The notes under the pieces were generated by a model that did not search any database, had not been told where the DNA came from, and saw nothing but the letters and a program-made list of their open reading frames with translations. The position numbers were made by a program, and so were the translations under genes. Shown one piece after another: positions 4,446-20,018 of a stretch of DNA of 20,018 nucleotides. The stretch is from positions 1 to 20,018 of the IMG/VR virus record IMGVR_UViG_3300036780_000100; one strand, given 5' to 3'. The DNA is from a virus. Positions within the stretch are counted from its first letter, which is position 1; every line of letters starts with the position of its first letter.

Positions 4446-6007
4446 TGTTCGCGCGGATGCTGAAGCTCGATGCGGCGAACCGCCTTGTCTATGCGCGCGT
4501 CGACGAGACACCCGACCGGATCGGCGACGCGATGGATTACGCGTCGACGAAGCCGCAATACGAGAAATGGTCGGCCGAGATGCAGAAGGCCTCGGGCGGC
4601 AAGAGCCTCGGCAACGTGCGCGGCATGCACCAGCTCACCGCCGCCGGCGTCGTCCAGGCGCTCGACTTCGACGATGCGGGCAAGGCGATCGATTTCTGCA
4701 TCAAGGTCGTCGACGACGGCGAATGGAAGAAGTGCGAGGAAGGCGTCTACACCGGCATCTCGCCCGGCGGCCGTTATCTGAAGCGCTGGAACGACGGGAA
4801 ATACATCCGCTACACCGGCGACCCGCAGGAGATCTCGCTGGTCGACCGGCCGATGATCCCGACTGCGACCTTCACCATGATCAAGGCGGACGGCGTGCAG
4901 GAGCAGCGCGCCTTCAAGGCGCCGGATGCGATGACGCTGCTCGCCGACGAGCTCGCGAGCGTCGGCAGCCCGGCCGAGTATCGCGCGGTGCTGCGGCGCC
5001 AGCCGGCGACGATGATCAAGGCGCTGTTTTCCGCCGAGGCGATGCAGACGCTCGCTGCCGCGCAAGGAATGGCGAAGGCCGATTACTCGAGCGACGAGCG
5101 CGACGCGATGGCGAAGAGCGGCGAAGCCATGGATGACGGCTCGTTCCCGATCAAATCCGCGAAGGACGTCGCGGACGCGGTCGACGATTGGGGCCGCGCC
5201 GGGAGCAAGCCCGCGGTCAAGGCGCATATCGCGAAACGCGCCAAGGCGATCGGCGCCACCGACAAGCTGCCCGAGGATTGGGACGGCTCGACCAAGAAGA
5301 AGATGGCGAAGGTCGTGTCGATCGGCGACATGCAGAAGGGCATGGGCGACGTCGCGCAGATGGCCTCGCTGCTCGAGCAGCTGAAATGGCTCGCCTGCTG
5401 CGTGACGCAAGATGCGACCGCGGAGCGCGACGGCTCGGCGCTGCCGGGGCGGCTCGCGCAATGGCTCAATGAGGGCGTCGCGATCTTCACCGATCTCGCG
5501 GCCGAGGAAAGCAACGAGGCGCTCACCGCGCTGCAGGCCTCGGTCGATGCGATCCCGGCGCAGGTGATGGCGAAGGCTGCGGCGGGCGGCGACATGCTCA
5601 AGGTCGGCGCCGCGATCAGCAAGTCCAACATGACGCACGTCCAGGCGATCCACGATCATGCGCGCGATCTCGGCGCCGATTGCGCCGCCGGCGACGGCAG
5701 CATGGCCAAGGTCGCCTTCGATCTCGCGACCGCGCGCGGCGACAACGCCATGCTGAAGCGCGCGATCGAGACGCGCGACCAGCGCATCGCCGATCTCGAG
5801 AAGCTTCCCGCCGGCGGCGGCCCGGTGCTGCGCGGCGGCGCGGTCGAGCGCAGCGAGGACGGCAGCGACCCGGCGGCGATGCTCAAGGCCGCGGACGTGC
5901 CGAAGGAGATCGCCGACATGCCCGAAGGCAGCGAGAAATCGACCCGGCTCTTCCGCTGGAGCATGGAGCATCCGACGCCGCCGCGCGCACCCGCGCGGCT
6001 CGGTTGA
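4442..6007 (+). CDS. XkdF-like prohead protease fused to scaffold-like C-terminal region
   Basis: The protein has 521 residues. The ATG at 4442 overlaps the portal stop and follows AGGAG at 4429-4433. Residues about 1-155 resemble the XkdF putative serine protease domain, with GVYTGISPGGRYLKRW and EISLVDRPMIPTATFTMIKADG. About 225-280 resembles a small helical domain often found in phage proteases of this type (FPIKSAKDVADAVDDWGRAG, AHIAKRAKAIGATDKLPEDW). The remaining ~240 residues are helical and Ala/Asp/Lys-rich, as expected of a scaffold. It sits between portal and capsid, the usual place of protease and scaffold. Inference: the protease matures the prohead and the fused tail serves as scaffold, removed by proteolysis. 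The catalytic Ser cannot be assigned with certainty. Confidence 0.78.
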   Translation: MMFARMLKLDAANRLVYARVDETPDRIGDAMDYASTKPQYEKWSAEMQKASGGKSLGNVRGMHQLTAAGVVQALDFDDAGKAIDFCIKVVDDGEWKKCEEGVYTGISPGGRYLKRWNDGKYIRYTGDPQEISLVDRPMIPTATFTMIKADGVQEQRAFKAPDAMTLLADELASVGSPAEYRAVLRRQPATMIKALFSAEAMQTLAAAQGMAKADYSSDERDAMAKSGEAMDDGSFPIKSAKDVADAVDDWGRAGSKPAVKAHIAKRAKAIGATDKLPEDWDGSTKKKMAKVVSIGDMQKGMGDVAQMASLLEQLKWLACCVTQDATAERDGSALPGRLAQWLNEGVAIFTDLAAEESNEALTALQASVDAIPAQVMAKAAAGGDMLKVGAAISKSNMTHVQAIHDHARDLGADCAAGDGSMAKVAFDLATARGDNAMLKRAIETRDQRIADLEKLPAGGGPVLRGGAVERSEDGSDPAAMLKAADVPKEIADMPEGSEKSTRLFRWSMEHPTPPRAPARLG

Positions 6008-14031: not shown

Positions 14032-14085
14032 AGCGAAGCAACGGCGCCGCGCGAATCGTTAGCGCGGCGCCTGCATGCGAAGCGT
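14032..14085 (+). repeat. Family 1 palindromic repeat, copy D
   Basis: A perfect 10-bp stem, GGCGCCGCGC (14043-14052) and GCGCGGCGCC (14062-14071), encloses loop GAATCGTTA. The left flank is AGCGAAGC and the right flank CTGCATGCGAAGC. It ends 22 nt before the next ATG. Its loop and right flank match copy B, while the arms have exchanged bases on both sides and stay complementary. Confidence 0.8.
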
Positions 14086-14093
14086 TAAAAGCG

Positions 14094-14687
14094 ATGACCA
14101 TTCCGGTCTTTCCCGCGCTGCCCGGTCTCGCTTTCCCGGTCGACCGCAAGCCGGCGAGCGCGACGGTGCTGCAGAAGACGAGCTCGGGCAAGAAGAGCGC
14201 GCTGCAACTCTATACCTTTCCCGAATATCAATACACGCTCGACATCGAGGTGCTGCGCCAGTTCGCGAGCTTCACCGAGTGGGCGACCTTCGTCGGCTTC
14301 GTCAACAGCCTGCAGGGCCAGGGCAACGTCTTCTATTTCGACGATCCCGACGACGACAGCGTCGCCGATCAGGCGACCGGCACCGGCGACGGCACGACCA
14401 CGGCGTTCCAGCTTGTGCGCACGATCGGTGGCTTCGCCGAGCCGATCCAGAGCATCAACGGCACGCCCACGATCATGCTCGACGGCACGCCGACCGCCGC
14501 GTTCACGCTCGGCAATACCGGCATCGTCACCTTCGCCAGCGCGCCCGGCGCGGGAGTCGCGATCACCTGGACCGGCAATTACTACTGGCTGTGCCGGCTC
14601 GACGCCGACGATGCGGTGAAGTTCTCGAAGTTCGCCAGCGGTCGCTGGTCGGTCAAGCAGATCAGCTTCACGACGGAGAAGCAGTAG
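14094..14687 (+). CDS. DUF2460-like distal tail protein
   Basis: The protein has 197 residues. Seen: FPALPGLAFPVDRKP at the N-terminus, KKSALQLYTFPEYQYTLDIE, a helix with WATFVGFVNSLQGQGNVFYF, then GTGDGTTTAFQLVRTIGG, IMLDGTPTAAFTLG, VTFASAPGAGVAITWTGNYY and FSKFASGRWSVKQISF. This series matches the DUF2460 family, which includes gene transfer agent distal tail proteins. It heads the tail-tip block and precedes DUF2163, NlpC/P60 and the large tip protein, the same order as in gene transfer agents. The ATG at 14094 has no Shine-Dalgarno; upstream is repeat D followed by GTTAAAAGCG. Role: a hub at the tube end that organises the baseplate. Confidence 0.85.
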   Translation: MTIPVFPALPGLAFPVDRKPASATVLQKTSSGKKSALQLYTFPEYQYTLDIEVLRQFASFTEWATFVGFVNSLQGQGNVFYFDDPDDDSVADQATGTGDGTTTAFQLVRTIGGFAEPIQSINGTPTIMLDGTPTAAFTLGNTGIVTFASAPGAGVAITWTGNYYWLCRLDADDAVKFSKFASGRWSVKQISFTTEKQ

Positions 14688-14702
14688 ATGCTGCGCCGCG
14701 CG

Positions 14703-14757
14703 CCGTCGCAAGACGCCGCCTCGCTGAATTCGCTCGCCGGCTTTGCTGGCGCGCGTC
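14703..14757 (-). repeat. Family 1 palindromic repeat, copy E (reversed)
   Basis: Read on the minus strand it carries AGCAAAGCC, a shortened loop GAATTCA and CGTCTTGCGA, matching copies A and C in order. Its arms, GCCGCCTCGC (14715-14724) and GCTCGCCGGC (14732-14741), pair at about 7 of 10 positions, the weakest stem of the set. It fills the spacer between the DUF2460 and DUF2163 genes. Confidence 0.7.
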
Positions 14758-14767
14758 GGGGGCACCG

Positions 14768-15700
14768 ATGCCGCTGAGAGCTGCCTCGCCGTCGCTGATC
14801 GCGTTGCTCGCCAGCATCGGCCCGACCGAGAATCCTTACATCGCCGAGCTCTACACCTTCACCCTCACCGGCGGCCTGGTGCTGCGCTACACGACCGCCG
14901 ATCGCGACGTCAATGTCGGCGGCACGATCTGGGAAGCGGGCACGGTGCGCTGGCAAGACCCGAACAACCGCGCGCTCGGTCATTGGAAGATCGGCCTCGA
15001 TCCCGATCAATGGCAGGTGCTGGCGGTGCCGCGCGACAAGGACCCGCATACGGGGACGCTGTGGCCGGATATGGTCGGCAGCCAGCCTTTCCTCGCCGCG
15101 GCTTTCGGGGGCGCCTTCAGCGGCGCCGACATCGAGGTCGATTACGCCTTCTTCGCTGCGCCGCCGGCCGCGGGTGCGACGAGTTGGGCGCCGGTCGGCA
15201 CCATCCAATGGTTCCGCGGCGAGGTCGGGCCGATCGATGTCGGCCGCTCGGCCGCCGTCTTCACCTTCAACGACTATCGCGTGCTGCTGACGACGCAGAT
15301 GCCCCGCCATCTCTTCGGTGCGACGTGCCGCTTCGCGCTCTACAGCCCGCCTTGCGGCGTCGTCGAAGCGAGCTTCGGCGTCGGCGGCGCGGTGGCCGAC
15401 GGCTCGCGTCCTGGGGTCATCGTCGCCAGTGCCGGGGTCTTCCCATCAATTAGCGGTCTCACCTTCGATCTCGGTCAATGTGTGATGACGAGCGGCGCGA
15501 ATGACGGATTCTCGCGCATGATCCGGCTCTGGGACGGCGGCAGCGGCTTTTATCTATCCGCGCCGTTCTATTGGCCGGTCAACGCCGGCGACAGCTTCAC
15601 GGTCTATCCCGGCTGCGACCTGACGCAGGCGACCTGCGCGCTCTTCGCCGGCAATTTCGGCGGCCAGCCCTTCATCCCGGCGCCGGAAACGGCAACATGA
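14768..15700 (+). CDS. DUF2163 / BR0599-family tail-tip protein
   Basis: The protein has 310 residues from ATG 14768, which follows a GGGGG run. The frame is open much further upstream through the DUF2460 gene and repeat E, which is not likely coding. Seen: NPYIAELYTFTLTGGLVLRY, VGGTIWEAGTVRW, a middle part with YAFFAAPP and WFRGEVGPIDVGRSAAVFTF, and a Cys-rich end (ATCRFALYSPPCGV, PGCDLTQATCALFAGNFGGQ, PFIPAPETA). The NFGGxPFIP ending near a Cys pair is typical of the family that follows DUF2460 in phages and gene transfer agents. It is a hub protein that binds the distal tail ring; four or more Cys may bind metal. A new repeat (F) follows the stop. Confidence 0.85.
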   Translation: MPLRAASPSLIALLASIGPTENPYIAELYTFTLTGGLVLRYTTADRDVNVGGTIWEAGTVRWQDPNNRALGHWKIGLDPDQWQVLAVPRDKDPHTGTLWPDMVGSQPFLAAAFGGAFSGADIEVDYAFFAAPPAAGATSWAPVGTIQWFRGEVGPIDVGRSAAVFTFNDYRVLLTTQMPRHLFGATCRFALYSPPCGVVEASFGVGGAVADGSRPGVIVASAGVFPSISGLTFDLGQCVMTSGANDGFSRMIRLWDGGSGFYLSAPFYWPVNAGDSFTVYPGCDLTQATCALFAGNFGGQPFIPAPETAT

Positions 15701-15768: not shown

Positions 15769-15794
15769 GCATGGCCGAGCGGGAGTCCGCGGCG

Positions 15795-16331
15795 ATGACC
15801 GAGCTCGAGCAACAACAGCGCGCGGCGGTGGTCGCCGAGGCCGAGAGCTGGCTGCGCACGCCCTATGTCCACGCGCAGCGCGTGAAGGGCGCCGGCGTCG
15901 ACTGCGCGATGCTGCCGGCCGAGGTCTATCACGGCGCCGGCCTGCTGCCCTTCGTCGCCGTGCCGTATTACCCGCGCGACTGGCATCACAATGTCGCGGC
16001 CGAGCGCTATCTCGCGATCGTCCTCAGCTACACGACGGAGATCCCGCGCGCGGCGCTCACGCCGGGCGACCTGATCCTCTTCCGCATCGGCAAGTGCTGG
16101 GCGCATGGCGGCATCGTCATGCCGCCCGGCTGGCCGCGCATCATCCATTCCGACGCCAATGCCGGCTGCGTCGCTTATGGCCGCGCCGATGGCGGGAGGC
16201 TCGCCGATCCAAGATGCAAGCCGAGATATTTCACCTTATGGCCTTCTTCGGTGCCGGCGCGGCCGTCGCAAGACGCCGGCGTCGCTGAAGACTCGCGCGC
16301 CGGCTTTGCTGGCCGCGCCGGGGAGGACTGA
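15795..16331 (+). CDS. NlpC/P60-family tail-tip peptidase
   Basis: The protein has 178 residues from ATG 15795 (MTELEQQQRAAVVAEAESWL) with GGGAG about 10 nt upstream. An earlier in-frame ATG at 15705 is followed by codons from repeat F and is unlikely. Catalytic residues are visible: Cys37 in GVDCAML, His104 in WAHGGIV and a third polar residue His118 in IIHSD; RTPYVHAQRVKGAGVDCA is the family-type lead-in. Family role: a cell-wall hydrolase in the tail tip that opens peptidoglycan during DNA entry. The last ~24 residues (after RYFTLWPSSVP) are encoded by repeat G and look like an accidental tail, so the ancestral protein probably ended near residue 154. Confidence 0.87.
   Translation: MTELEQQQRAAVVAEAESWLRTPYVHAQRVKGAGVDCAMLPAEVYHGAGLLPFVAVPYYPRDWHHNVAAERYLAIVLSYTTEIPRAALTPGDLILFRIGKCWAHGGIVMPPGWPRIIHSDANAGCVAYGRADGGRLADPRCKPRYFTLWPSSVPARPSQDAGVAEDSRAGFAGRAGED
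16262..16316 (-). repeat. Family 1 palindromic repeat, copy G (reversed, inside a coding region)
   Basis: On the minus strand it reads CAGCAAAGCCGG, loop GAGTCTTCA, and CGTCTTGCGACGGC. Arms GCCGGCGTCGC (16275-16285) and GCGCGCCGGC (16295-16304) pair over 10 bp with one bulged T. The entire element is in frame with the peptidase gene and supplies its C-terminal residues (ARPSQDAGVAEDSRAGFAG). It ends 18 nt before the next start. Confidence 0.78.
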
Positions 16332-16334
16332 GTC

Positions 16335-19300
16335 ATGTCCGGCCTGTTCGGCGGCAAGAACCAGGTCAACGACACGACGCCGCCGGCGACGGCGCTGCGC
16401 GTGCAGAGCTCGATCGCCGGCAAGGCGATCCCCGTCGTCGTCGGCCAGGTGCGGCTCGGGCCCAATCTCATCGACGATCAGGACTTCGCCTCGCAGCAGA
16501 TCTCGAGCGGCGGCGGCGGCGGCGGCGGCGGCAAAGGCGGCGGCGGCAGCTGCGTCGCCGGCGAGACCCTGGTTGCCATGCCCGGCGGCGCGAAGCGCAT
16601 CGATCAGCTCGCACCGGGCGATCTCATCTGGTCGCTCGACCCCGACAGCGGCAACCGCGTCGCCGGCCGCGTCGAGCAGGTGTTGAAGCACGACATGGCG
16701 CAGTTGCCCGATAAGCTGCTGCGGGTCGATTTCTTCGGCAGCGATCGGCCGCTCTTCATCACCACGAATCATTATCCCTGGATCGACGGCACCCGCCGCC
16801 GCGAGATGAAGGATTGGTGCATCGGCGAGGAGCTGCTGCATCTCGACAGCGGCTTCGCCGTCATCAGCAGCATGCGCGACGCGCCCGCGGCGGCATTCAC
16901 CTACAACCTCGTCGTCGCGCCGCACCACAACTTCTTCGCCGAGGGCGTGCTGCTCCATAACGGCTTCAGCAGCGGCGGCGGCAAGGGCAACACGCAGACG
17001 ACCTACACCGTCGTGCCGGTCTATGGCGTCTGCGAGGGGCCGATCGCCGGCTTTTACCAGATGTGGAACGGTCAATCGCCGACGTCGCTCGCGGCGCTGA
17101 ATTTTACCGGCTATGTCGGCGATTATCCCGGCGAGATGTCGGGCTACATGGAGACCAAGCACCCGGCGAACGCGCTGCCCTATCCCGGCCTGGCGCGCGT
17201 CGAGGCGACGCCGCTGCAACTCGGCACCTCGGATAGCCTGCCGAACATCAATGTCGAAGTCCTTGCCGCCATCAACGGCTTGGCGCTGAACGGCGTCATC
17301 GTCAGCGCCGATCCGTCGCTTTGGATCGCGGATCTGCTGACCAACGCGAATTACGGCGTCGGCTTTCCCTCGGCGCGGCTCGGCGACCTCTCCACCTATT
17401 CGGCCTTCTGCATCACCAACCTGCTGCTGGTGAGCGATGCGATGACCGATCAGCGGGCGTTGAACGACTATTTGAACGACCTGGCGGAAGCGACCTATTC
17501 GGAATTCGTCTTCGTCGACGGCGGCCTCACCGTCATCCCGCGCGGCATGCAGGCGACGGGCGGCTTCGGCATCGCCTATATCCCGCCCGCGGTCGATTAC
17601 ACGCTGTCGATCGACGACTTCCTGCCGAACACCAACGCGACCGGGACGTCCGCGGCCTCGACGGCGCTCAGCAACGATCCGGTGATCTGGGTCACCGCGG
17701 AGCGCTCGACGCTCGACAACCAGATCACGGTCAACTGCTACGACCGGCAGAATTCCTACAATCCCAACCCGCAGATCGCGCAGAACCTCGCCGCGATCCA
17801 AGCCTGGGGGCTGCGCGCCGGCGACCCGAAGCAATACAGCTTCTTCACCGACACCTTCGCCTCGATCGCCAGCGCTCACTATCAGCTCGAGGAAGCGCAG
17901 ATCGACAAAACCTGCTGCTTCACCCTCGGCATGAAATATGCGCGGGTGATGCCGATGTCGATCCTCGCCGGCATCCCGCTGCCGCAGAACGTCGGCACGA
18001 CGACGGTGCGCGTCGTTGAGATCACCCAGAACCAGGACTTCACCTTCTCGGTCACCGCCGAGGAATATCCGGTCGGCGGCATCGCGCCGCAGCAATACAA
18101 TTCGGAGAACCCGAACCCCACCGCGCCGGGCATCAACACAGATCCGGGCCTGACCACGGCCTATATCTTCGAGCCGTTGGAGAGCCTCGCCGGCGACCCC
18201 GAAATCTGGATCATGGCGAATGGTGCGAGCGAACACTGGCGCGGCTGCGACGTCTATCTCTCCTTCGACAATCAGAGCTATTTGCAGATCGGCTCGATCA
18301 CCAACGCGGCACGCGCCGGTGTGCTGACGGCACCGCTGCCGGCGATCACGCCGGCGAGCTTCGGCCAGACTGTCGACACCACCGACACGCTCTCGGTCGC
18401 GCTGCAAGGCAACAACGACGAGCTCGCCGGCGGCACGCTGGCCGAGGCGCTGCAGCTCTCGACGCTCTGCTATGTCGACGGCGAGCTCCTTGCTTATCAG
18501 AACGCCACGCTCACCGGCGCCGGCGCCTACAACCTCACCACGCTCGTGCGGGGCGCTTACGGTACGACGATCGGCGCGCATCTCGCGGCCACGCAATTCG
18601 CGCGCATCGACAACAACGACGCGACGATCGTCAAGCTGCCCTACACGCCCGACCGCGTCGGGCAGGTGTGCTATCTCAAATTCGTCGCCGTCAATACCTT
18701 CGGCGGCGGCGACCAGGAGCTCGCCGGCGTCCCGTTCCACGTCTATGTCGTCCAGGGGAGCGCCGTCACCGCGCCATTGCCCGATGTCGAGGGGCTGCAG
18801 CAGACCGTCGACGTCAACAACGTCGTCGAGCTGATCTGGGAGACGGTAACCGACACGCTGCCGGTGCCGCGCCCGGTCGATTACGAGATCCGCTTCGGGG
18901 GGGCGTCGTGGACGAGCGCGACCTTCATCGGCCGCACCGCGGCGACGTCGTTCGCGGTGCCGTCTGACGGCCTGTTCTGGGTCGCGGCGCATTATTCGCC
19001 AGTCGCCGGTGTCGACGTCTACAGCGCCGCAGCGAGCCTCACGGTCACCATTCCGCTCGGGCTGCAGAACCTGTTGGTGCAATCCATCGCCGAAGCAGCG
19101 CCAGCGCCGTTCATCGAAGGCTCGCTGATCACGCCCTTCGATACGTTCTTCCCCGATTCTAACCTGGTGCTCTTCGGCGCCTGGACGCCCTTTTATAATC
19201 AGATGTTCCCCAACGGGGGGCAGCCTTACGGCTTCGCGGTCAGCGACGGCGTGGCGCGGCTGCAGGGCCTCTATCTCGCCCTCGGCGACAGCGGCGACTT

Positions 19301-20009
19301 CTTCGCCCCGGCTGATTTCTTCGCCGAGGCCAATCCGCTCTACCAGGGCGGCATCAAGCCCAGCGGTCGCTACGTGATGGAGTTCGGCTCGCTCAGCGGC
19401 TTCAAGGCGCGCGCCGACAGCACGGTCGTGGTCGTCGCGTCCTACATCTTCGCCGGCGTGCCGATCTACGGCGACTTCTTCTCCCTGCCGGACTTCTTCT
19501 ACGGGGACGACTTCTTGCAATGGACCTTGGCGCAACGCGCCAGCCTCACCTTCCAGTATGGCTTGAGCAGTAACGCCTTCGTCGAGCCGACGAGTTGGGT
19601 CGCTTTTCAGCCCGGCCAGCAGATCCGCGTGCCGGCCGGCGAGACGATCTTTCTCAGCGCGCTGATCGAGACGAGCGACCCGAGCGTCCAGCCTATCCTC
19701 TCGCATCTCAACGTCGGCATCTTCGGCGTCGACCAGGTCGAGCGTTTCCAAGACGTCGCGACCGCCGCGGCGGTGACTCTCGCCATGCCGCGCAACGACC
19801 GGCCGAACATCGCCCTGGTGCCGCTCGATCAGCAATCGGGCGACGTCCTCACCGTGACCTGGCAGCAATCCTCTGGCTCCGGCACCAACCAGCCGATCTT
19901 CGGCGGCGGCGGATTCCTCACCGGTGCCTATACCGGCTTCACCCTCGGCGTCACCAATGGCGGCGTCGCGGTGACGCGGCATTTCGACTGCGCCGTCATC
20001 GGCTTTTAA
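16335..20009 (+). CDS. Large tail-tip (gpJ/megatron-like) protein with internal Hint domain
   Basis: The protein has 1224 residues; GGGGAGGA lies upstream of ATG 16335. Residues 1-72 (ALRVQSSIAGKAIPVVVGQV) lead into a glycine-rich linker. Residues 73-209 are a Hint/intein-like domain. The tip protein resumes at GGGKGNTQTTYTVVPVYGV and continues through VCEGPIAGFYQMW, RALNDYLNDLAEATYSEF, an LVRGAYGTTIGAH segment near 737, a fibronectin-like part at about 811-905 (ELIWETVTDTLPVPRPVDYE), and a C-terminal region after about 930 rich in repeated DFF motifs (GDFFAPADFF, GDFFSLPDFFYGDDFL) that may be host-contacting. It is last in the tail block, as in gene transfer agents and lambda gpJ. Stop is TAA 20007-20009. 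Exact subfamily is uncertain. Confidence 0.85.
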   Translation: MSGLFGGKNQVNDTTPPATALRVQSSIAGKAIPVVVGQVRLGPNLIDDQDFASQQISSGGGGGGGGKGGGGSCVAGETLVAMPGGAKRIDQLAPGDLIWSLDPDSGNRVAGRVEQVLKHDMAQLPDKLLRVDFFGSDRPLFITTNHYPWIDGTRRREMKDWCIGEELLHLDSGFAVISSMRDAPAAAFTYNLVVAPHHNFFAEGVLLHNGFSSGGGKGNTQTTYTVVPVYGVCEGPIAGFYQMWNGQSPTSLAALNFTGYVGDYPGEMSGYMETKHPANALPYPGLARVEATPLQLGTSDSLPNINVEVLAAINGLALNGVIVSADPSLWIADLLTNANYGVGFPSARLGDLSTYSAFCITNLLLVSDAMTDQRALNDYLNDLAEATYSEFVFVDGGLTVIPRGMQATGGFGIAYIPPAVDYTLSIDDFLPNTNATGTSAASTALSNDPVIWVTAERSTLDNQITVNCYDRQNSYNPNPQIAQNLAAIQAWGLRAGDPKQYSFFTDTFASIASAHYQLEEAQIDKTCCFTLGMKYARVMPMSILAGIPLPQNVGTTTVRVVEITQNQDFTFSVTAEEYPVGGIAPQQYNSENPNPTAPGINTDPGLTTAYIFEPLESLAGDPEIWIMANGASEHWRGCDVYLSFDNQSYLQIGSITNAARAGVLTAPLPAITPASFGQTVDTTDTLSVALQGNNDELAGGTLAEALQLSTLCYVDGELLAYQNATLTGAGAYNLTTLVRGAYGTTIGAHLAATQFARIDNNDATIVKLPYTPDRVGQVCYLKFVAVNTFGGGDQELAGVPFHVYVVQGSAVTAPLPDVEGLQQTVDVNNVVELIWETVTDTLPVPRPVDYEIRFGGASWTSATFIGRTAATSFAVPSDGLFWVAAHYSPVAGVDVYSAAASLTVTIPLGLQNLLVQSIAEAAPAPFIEGSLITPFDTFFPDSNLVLFGAWTPFYNQMFPNGGQPYGFAVSDGVARLQGLYLALGDSGDFFAPADFFAEANPLYQGGIKPSGRYVMEFGSLSGFKARADSTVVVVASYIFAGVPIYGDFFSLPDFFYGDDFLQWTLAQRASLTFQYGLSSNAFVEPTSWVAFQPGQQIRVPAGETIFLSALIETSDPSVQPILSHLNVGIFGVDQVERFQDVATAAAVTLAMPRNDRPNIALVPLDQQSGDVLTVTWQQSSGSGTNQPIFGGGGFLTGAYTGFTLGVTNGGVAVTRHFDCAVIGF
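16551..16961 (+). other. Hint / intein-like (BIL-type) domain, in frame within the tail-tip gene
   Basis: Residues 73-209 carry the expected Hint motifs. The N-terminal block is CVAGETLVAMPGGAKRIDQL with GDLIWSLD. TTNH fits the TxxH block. The C-terminal block is NLVVAPHHNFFAEGVLLHN. The domain starts with Cys73 and ends His208-Asn209, but the next residue is Gly210 and not Cys, Ser or Thr. At 137 residues it has no endonuclease insert. It sits inside a glycine-rich loop (SGGGGGGGG before, SSGGGKG after), so it interrupts a flexible segment. Known: standard inteins need Cys/Ser/Thr at +1; bacterial intein-like domains often lack it and cleave or splice differently. Inference: autoprocessing of the tail tip is possible but the outcome is not known. 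Confidence 0.82.
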
Positions 20010-20010
20010 C

Positions 20011-20018
20011 AGGAGAGA
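20011..20018 (+). promoter_or_regulatory. Ribosome binding site of a gene beyond the window
   Basis: AGGAGAGA directly after the tail-tip stop matches the strong site upstream of the capsid gene (AGGAGAG). It implies another gene begins just past the right edge, probably a tail fibre or other late gene. Confidence 0.55.

Follow-up and report, generated by a model that had tools for sequence, protein, structure and literature searches.

The tail-tip hub protein encoded on a 20,018-base virus record from IMG/VR (the window, i.e. the whole stretch of DNA analysed) carries in a glycine loop an inserted Hint domain, which we interpret as an A-type BIL-like domain that brings about cleavage-type self-processing of the hub (probability of about 0.7). 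A putative self-processing domain of this kind is seen in the central tail hub of two diverged families, at one fixed loop, with the catalytic residues kept and the splicing nucleophile always missing. Enzymes, surface proteins and toxins are the main known hosts of inteins and BIL domains. We found no report of a Hint domain in a tail-tip hub in open full-text papers; proteins of uncultured phages are already annotated as 'Hint domain containing' in UniProt. The machine with which these phages inject their DNA probably cuts or trims itself in the course of assembly. If this is true, some of the uncultured tailed phages use auto-proteolysis to mature their ejection hub, a step that would be new to tail assembly, and the predicted tail-tip masses and structures for Hint-bearing phages are wrong. 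These phages would also be a source of natural BIL domains with simple glycine flanks.

The right end of the window is an RcGTA-like tail module with genes for a tape measure, a DUF2460 protein, a gp13-like protein, an NlpC/P60 peptidase and the tail-tip hub (Table 1). A GGAGG motif is found 8 nt upstream of the ATG of the hub gene. In Foldseek searches, the hub part of the protein matches RcGTA gp15, lambda gpJ, T5 pb3 and further tail tips, and homology to hubs of the gp15/gpJ type is indicated by E-values of 1.8e-15 for 6tba_8A (RcGTA gp15) and 3e-15 for 8k35_A; 6tba_8A is also matched by profile (E 4.3e-10). The host of the Hint domain is a trimeric hub and DNA conduit of the gp15/gpJ type. 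The original prediction of a receptor-facing or cell-penetrating tip was right in that this is a tail-tip protein; it is not merely such a tip, since both structure and profile matches identify it as a gp15/gpJ hub. RcGTA gp15 (Rcc01698, 6tba/6teh) and lambda gpJ are homologous hubs that share the glycine-loop hairpin and the gene order gp12-13-14-15, but their loop is empty, and in lambda the gene directly upstream of gpJ encodes a separate chain, gpI. In the region of this loop, the hub naturally consists of more than one chain in both lambda and RcGTA. On the minus strand, an antisense open frame of 1260 aa (window 16236-20018) spans the whole tail-tip gene; it probably results from G+C-rich codon use.

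Table 1. Coordinates of the tail module, the hub loop and the Hint domain in the window.
Feature	Position	Strand	Basis
DUF2460 tail protein (gp12-like)	14094..14687	+	domain match
Baseplate-hub gp13-like protein, C-terminal part of open frame	14075..15700	+	PF09931, PF09356
NlpC/P60 peptidase gene (gp14-like), directly upstream of hub gene	15789..16331	+	PF00877 8.8e-5, at cut-off
Shine-Dalgarno-like GGGGAGGA before hub ATG	16320..16327	+	sequence
Tail-tip hub protein, 1224 aa	16335..20009	+	PF13550 and Rcc01698_C above cut-off; phrog_1101 tail protein
Hub beta-strand before loop, aa 44-57	16464..16505	+	AlphaFold2 model of aa 1-640
N-side glycine linker, aa 59-72, GGGGGGGGKGGGGS	16509..16550	+	sequence; 59-69 disordered in model
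Hint (BIL-like) domain, aa 73-209, 137 aa, without homing endonuclease	16551..16961	+	domain matches, alignment, model
Cys73, Cys1 of the Hint, invariant	16551..16553	+	20/20 aligned Hints, 80/80 gpJ-type, 8/8 window-type
Block B TTNH, aa 143-146 (TxxH)	16761..16772	+	T143 and H146 invariant; TPNH in 80/80 gpJ-type
Blocks F/G, aa 198-209, HNFFAEGVLLHN, ending in penultimate His and terminal Asn	16926..16961	+	H198, A202, H208, N209 invariant
+1 residue Gly210, non-nucleophilic	16962..16964	+	Gly in 8/8 members
C-side glycine linker, aa 210-221, GFSSGGGKGNTQ	16962..16997	+	sequence; 213-217 disordered in model
Hub beta-strand after loop, aa 220-234, leading to conserved CEGPI	16992..17036	+	AlphaFold2 model, alignment

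It is nearly certain that residues 73-209 form a complete Hint domain. The bounds first proposed for the insert, from Cys73 to Asn209, proved exact, and the catalytic set is complete as predicted, with Cys73, TTNH, HHNFFAEG (197-204) and His208-Asn209 all present, Gly210 at +1 offering no nucleophile, and glycine flanks on both sides (GGGGKGGGGS before and GFSSGGGKG after). In Pfam, the isolated domain matches Intein_splicing (E 3.6e-5) and Hint_2 (2.4e-4), both under the curated cut-offs, while L201, a relative, scores above cut-off for both PT-HINT (50.5 bits, cut-off 27.7) and Hint_2. An AlphaFold2 monomer model, built with 20 tail-tip Hints, has a pTM of 0.80, with pLDDT values of about 92-98 throughout the domain. 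This confident model has the Hint fold, in agreement with the original prediction; its Z scores against inteins and BIL domains are about 19-21. Using VIA-align, the SspDnaB mini-intein 6frg aligns at Z 21.5 (rmsd 1.6 A over 134 residues), BIL2 6y75 at Z 20.7 and the C. thermocellum BIL 2lwy at Z 19.3; altogether 91 chains match at Z 8 or more. In Foldseek, the top match is T. thermophila BIL2, with the C. thermocellum BIL and the SspDnaB mini-intein close behind.

The domain shares with A-type BIL domains the Hint fold, Cys1 and TxxH, the His-Asn at the C-terminus and the lack of both a +1 nucleophile and an endonuclease; the loop that holds it is variable. BIL domains have been described in non-conserved, hypervariable bacterial proteins (Amitai 2003, Dassa 2004 and Aranko 2013, as cited in PMC7765530, PMC5874633 and PMC7664689). 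In contrast, the host here is a conserved structural phage tail hub, and the insertion is always in the same loop, in both tail-tip families. Class 1 mini-inteins such as SspDnaB and NpuDnaB share its fold (Z about 21, rmsd 1.6-1.7 A) and its Cys1, TxxH and His-Asn; unlike them, the window Hint has no C, S or T at +1 and lies in a variable loop instead of a conserved active site. A class 1 intein with canonical splicing was rejected on account of Gly210 at +1. Also rejected were a class 3 intein, which has a WCT motif and no Cys1 (Cys73 is present and invariant); a B-type BIL domain, which is without the intein C-terminal motif (the window Hint ends in the canonical one); and a Hedgehog Hog domain or ester transfer, where a sterol-recognition region follows and Asn cleavage is lacking (here a hub strand comes directly after the Hint).

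In the AlphaFold2 monomer model of aa 1-640, the Hint sits at the tip of a beta-hairpin, connected to two long strands through disordered glycine linkers. A break or a removal at this position should thus spare the hub, and a cut in the loop should be harmless because its two sides are strands of one hairpin. The search proposed beforehand, for homologues with and without the insert, found both at the same loop. Nearly all relatives, namely four phage records and some 170 viral or prophage sequences, have an empty loop, usually with a GKGG motif; a few are fragments that stop short of it. With a profile made from three Hint-bearing hubs, RcGTA gp15 can be aligned on either side of the insert (residues 50-103, a weak match on its own, and 108-208), so the empty site is present in a solved structure. 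When the Hint is excised on paper, the flanking landmarks of five members are 26-37 residues apart, compared to 20-38 in 40 empty relatives; since this is within the empty range, the insertion is clean and its removal yields an ordinary loop. The loop is variable in length (20-38 aa) while the host protein is a conserved hub. Independent contigs carry the same insertion at the same site, and it is therefore not an assembly chimera. A doubled glycine loop (GGGGKGGVTGGGGGKGGG) occurs in six of the empty hubs (L103, L104, L118, L128, L134 and L166) and resembles the two flanks of the window Hint joined together.

The domain is not an isolated oddity: a Hint is carried by seven further window-type tail tips and by at least 80 of the lambda gpJ type. 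With the window domain as query, 385 alphaproteobacterial genomes yielded a single tail tip whose corresponding loop holds a Hint (L200), and 317 genomes of its order yielded one more (L199). Five more window-type members were obtained in IMG/VR scans (L201, L202, L298, L300 and L301). All eight, the window included, have Cys1, TxxH-Y, H-N-[FY], His-Asn and a Gly at +1. The second group, reached through the IMG/VR contig L203, consists of lambda gpJ-type tail tips of uncultured phages, with the FNIII-A_GpJ domain (PF24801), in which the Hint is at the extreme N-terminus, within a glycine stretch preceding the gpJ hub (L217-L296, IMG/VR). This set comprises the best 80 of 115 relatives reported by one scan seeded from one contig. 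All 80 have Cys1, TPNH, a His-Asn end, a Hint length of 130 aa and Ala at +1, followed by GLG or GIG. In many of these tail tips, the short upstream flank (e.g. RIIGAGGGG) recurs downstream, and C-terminal cleavage alone would therefore leave a normal-looking N-terminus.

Other searches delimit this distribution. No cultured phage among the 50,697 phage records searched has this domain; tblastn against cultured phages returned only inteins (in helicases, terminases and thymidylate synthase) and one RHS pretoxin Hint, and the plasmid search only Hints of polymorphic toxins. Viral contigs gave no match when scanned with only the window protein, nor with a DNA pattern for HNF[FLYH]A..G....HNG. 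Most alphaproteobacterial Hint matches were set aside as ordinary FecR-type, calcium-binding-type or RHS proteins.

We infer the reaction, its main product and its timing as follows. After folding, Cys73 would attack the preceding peptide bond in an N-S shift, and Asn209 would cyclise with the help of His208, breaking the bond to Gly210. Because Gly210 has no side-chain nucleophile, the usual transesterification is impossible, and a cut chain is expected: an N-terminal piece of 72 aa, the free Hint and a hub of 1015 aa. The hub would be cut at Ser72/Cys73, at Asn209/Gly210 or at both, and the 72-aa piece would stay in place as one strand of the beta-hairpin. BIL domains without a +1 nucleophile give mostly N- and C-cleaved products (PMC7664689, PMC5874633, PMC7765530). 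Perhaps a minor ligated form would also arise, with the new amino end of Gly210 attacking the thioester; either way the Hint would depart and the loop would be back to its normal length.

Efficient splicing through this backbone amine, which would leave the mature hub unbroken and make the Hint a benign intein-like passenger, is unlikely. Ligation by a BIL domain without nucleophilic side chains has been reported (Aranko 2013, as cited in PMC7664689), and excision here would give a loop that is ordinary in length and content, GGGGKGGGGS-GFSSGGGKG, similar to the doubled loop of L104 and L118. The scattered distribution of the Hint also suits a passenger. However, BIL domains cleave for the most part (PMC7664689), and the +1 residue is Gly in 8/8 window-type and Ala in 80/80 gpJ-type members, with C, S or T in none of the 88; selection for ligation would favour reversion to one of these.

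The history of the domain bears on whether it is a selfish mobile mini-intein that moves among tail-tip genes and does nothing for the phage. In a tree built from 78 hub proteins, diverged in sequence, with the Hint columns removed and five Hint-bearing rows, the presence of the Hint needs three changes, a result forced by supported branches and holding across the 5-95% bootstrap range. A single clade of Hint-bearing hubs is rejected (AU p 0.0018), and they belong to at least three lineages, whereas the window-type Hints themselves form one clade (98/91). A single Hint lineage at the same loop in separate hub lineages implies either transfer into the same site or repeated loss. This is the pattern expected of a mobile element, but repeated loss could produce the same scattered distribution, and a homing endonuclease is absent from every member. 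Furthermore, the gpJ-type Hint has a fixed length in all 80 members and is strongly constrained, which fits a domesticated part better. We therefore regard a purely selfish element as rather improbable. It should be noted that Hints of the two tail-tip types are about 26-34% identical, and that their grouping as one clade is neither supported nor rejected (AU p 0.138).

Estimates of selection cover gpJ-type pairs and the pair L201/L202. In 315 pairs of gpJ-type Hints, dN/dS has a median of 0.035, and these domains are under strong purifying selection. Between L201 and L202, dN/dS is 0.167 for the Hint vs. 0.075 for the remaining hub, i.e. constraint is weaker on the Hint.

A more specific role can be imagined for the Hint, as a component of the ejection machine that acts at a set time or on a trigger, although we consider it quite doubtful. 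Its three copies, placed at the hub like the T5 plug domain and lambda gpI, would hold the hub in an unfinished or closed state and self-excise on assembly or on receptor contact, converting one chain into a lambda-like two-chain hub. The plug domain of T5 pb3 likewise sits within the hub, in its HDII-insertion region (PMC10721106), but is a structural stopper and not a Hint. The idea that the Hint takes the place of a plug or controls one is speculative.

An alignment of 20 Hints from both tail-tip types, 26-45% identical to that of the window, has 14 invariant positions: C73, T78, G95, G106, H119, T143, H146, Y190, N191, L192, H198, A202, H208 and N209. As read from the alignment, this set includes every residue expected to be catalytic, and an inert decoration should not retain exactly these. 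Inserted domains are common in tail hubs, and the site has been termed a focus of hypervariability in a hub study (PMC13243795), which would suit a Hint that is retained as structural decoration, exposed at the tail-tip loop with no cleavage. Decoration, however, needs no Cys1, TxxH or His-Asn, all of which are invariant in both tail-tip types, and it would be strange to decorate the surroundings of the DNA channel with three domains of 15 kDa on long flexible linkers; an inert Hint is thus very improbable. Hint-triggered release of a cargo or toxin, as in polymorphic toxins with a pretoxin HINT (PF07591), with which there is sequence kinship and which is the best Pfam match of L201 (PT-HINT), is largely refuted by the domain order and can be given hardly any weight, since the Hint is followed by conserved hub instead of a variable toxin and preceded by a hub strand.

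Several further Hint-like domains were observed. In L086, an open frame starting at 5841 (+), after the tail tip, has a glycine run and then a C-terminal Hint-like domain (CPEVNEMVDLPGG...VHSYQTGGILSSN-IKPTQ stop); it was ruled out as a loop insertion, being located at the end of the next tail gene. In the prokaryote genomes L182 and L184, a glycine run, a Hint and HN-KG are found at the C-terminus of other proteins (FecR-like in L184), and glycine flanks around Hints are not peculiar to phages. Finally, the Hints of L199 (3838-4332) and L200 (7235-7729) have an extra stretch of ~25 residues (WMPWPLYYRLPRWLRRLCPRQLP) after the first ~14 residues, which is missing from the window; it is rich in Trp, Pro and Arg and looks amphipathic and cationic.
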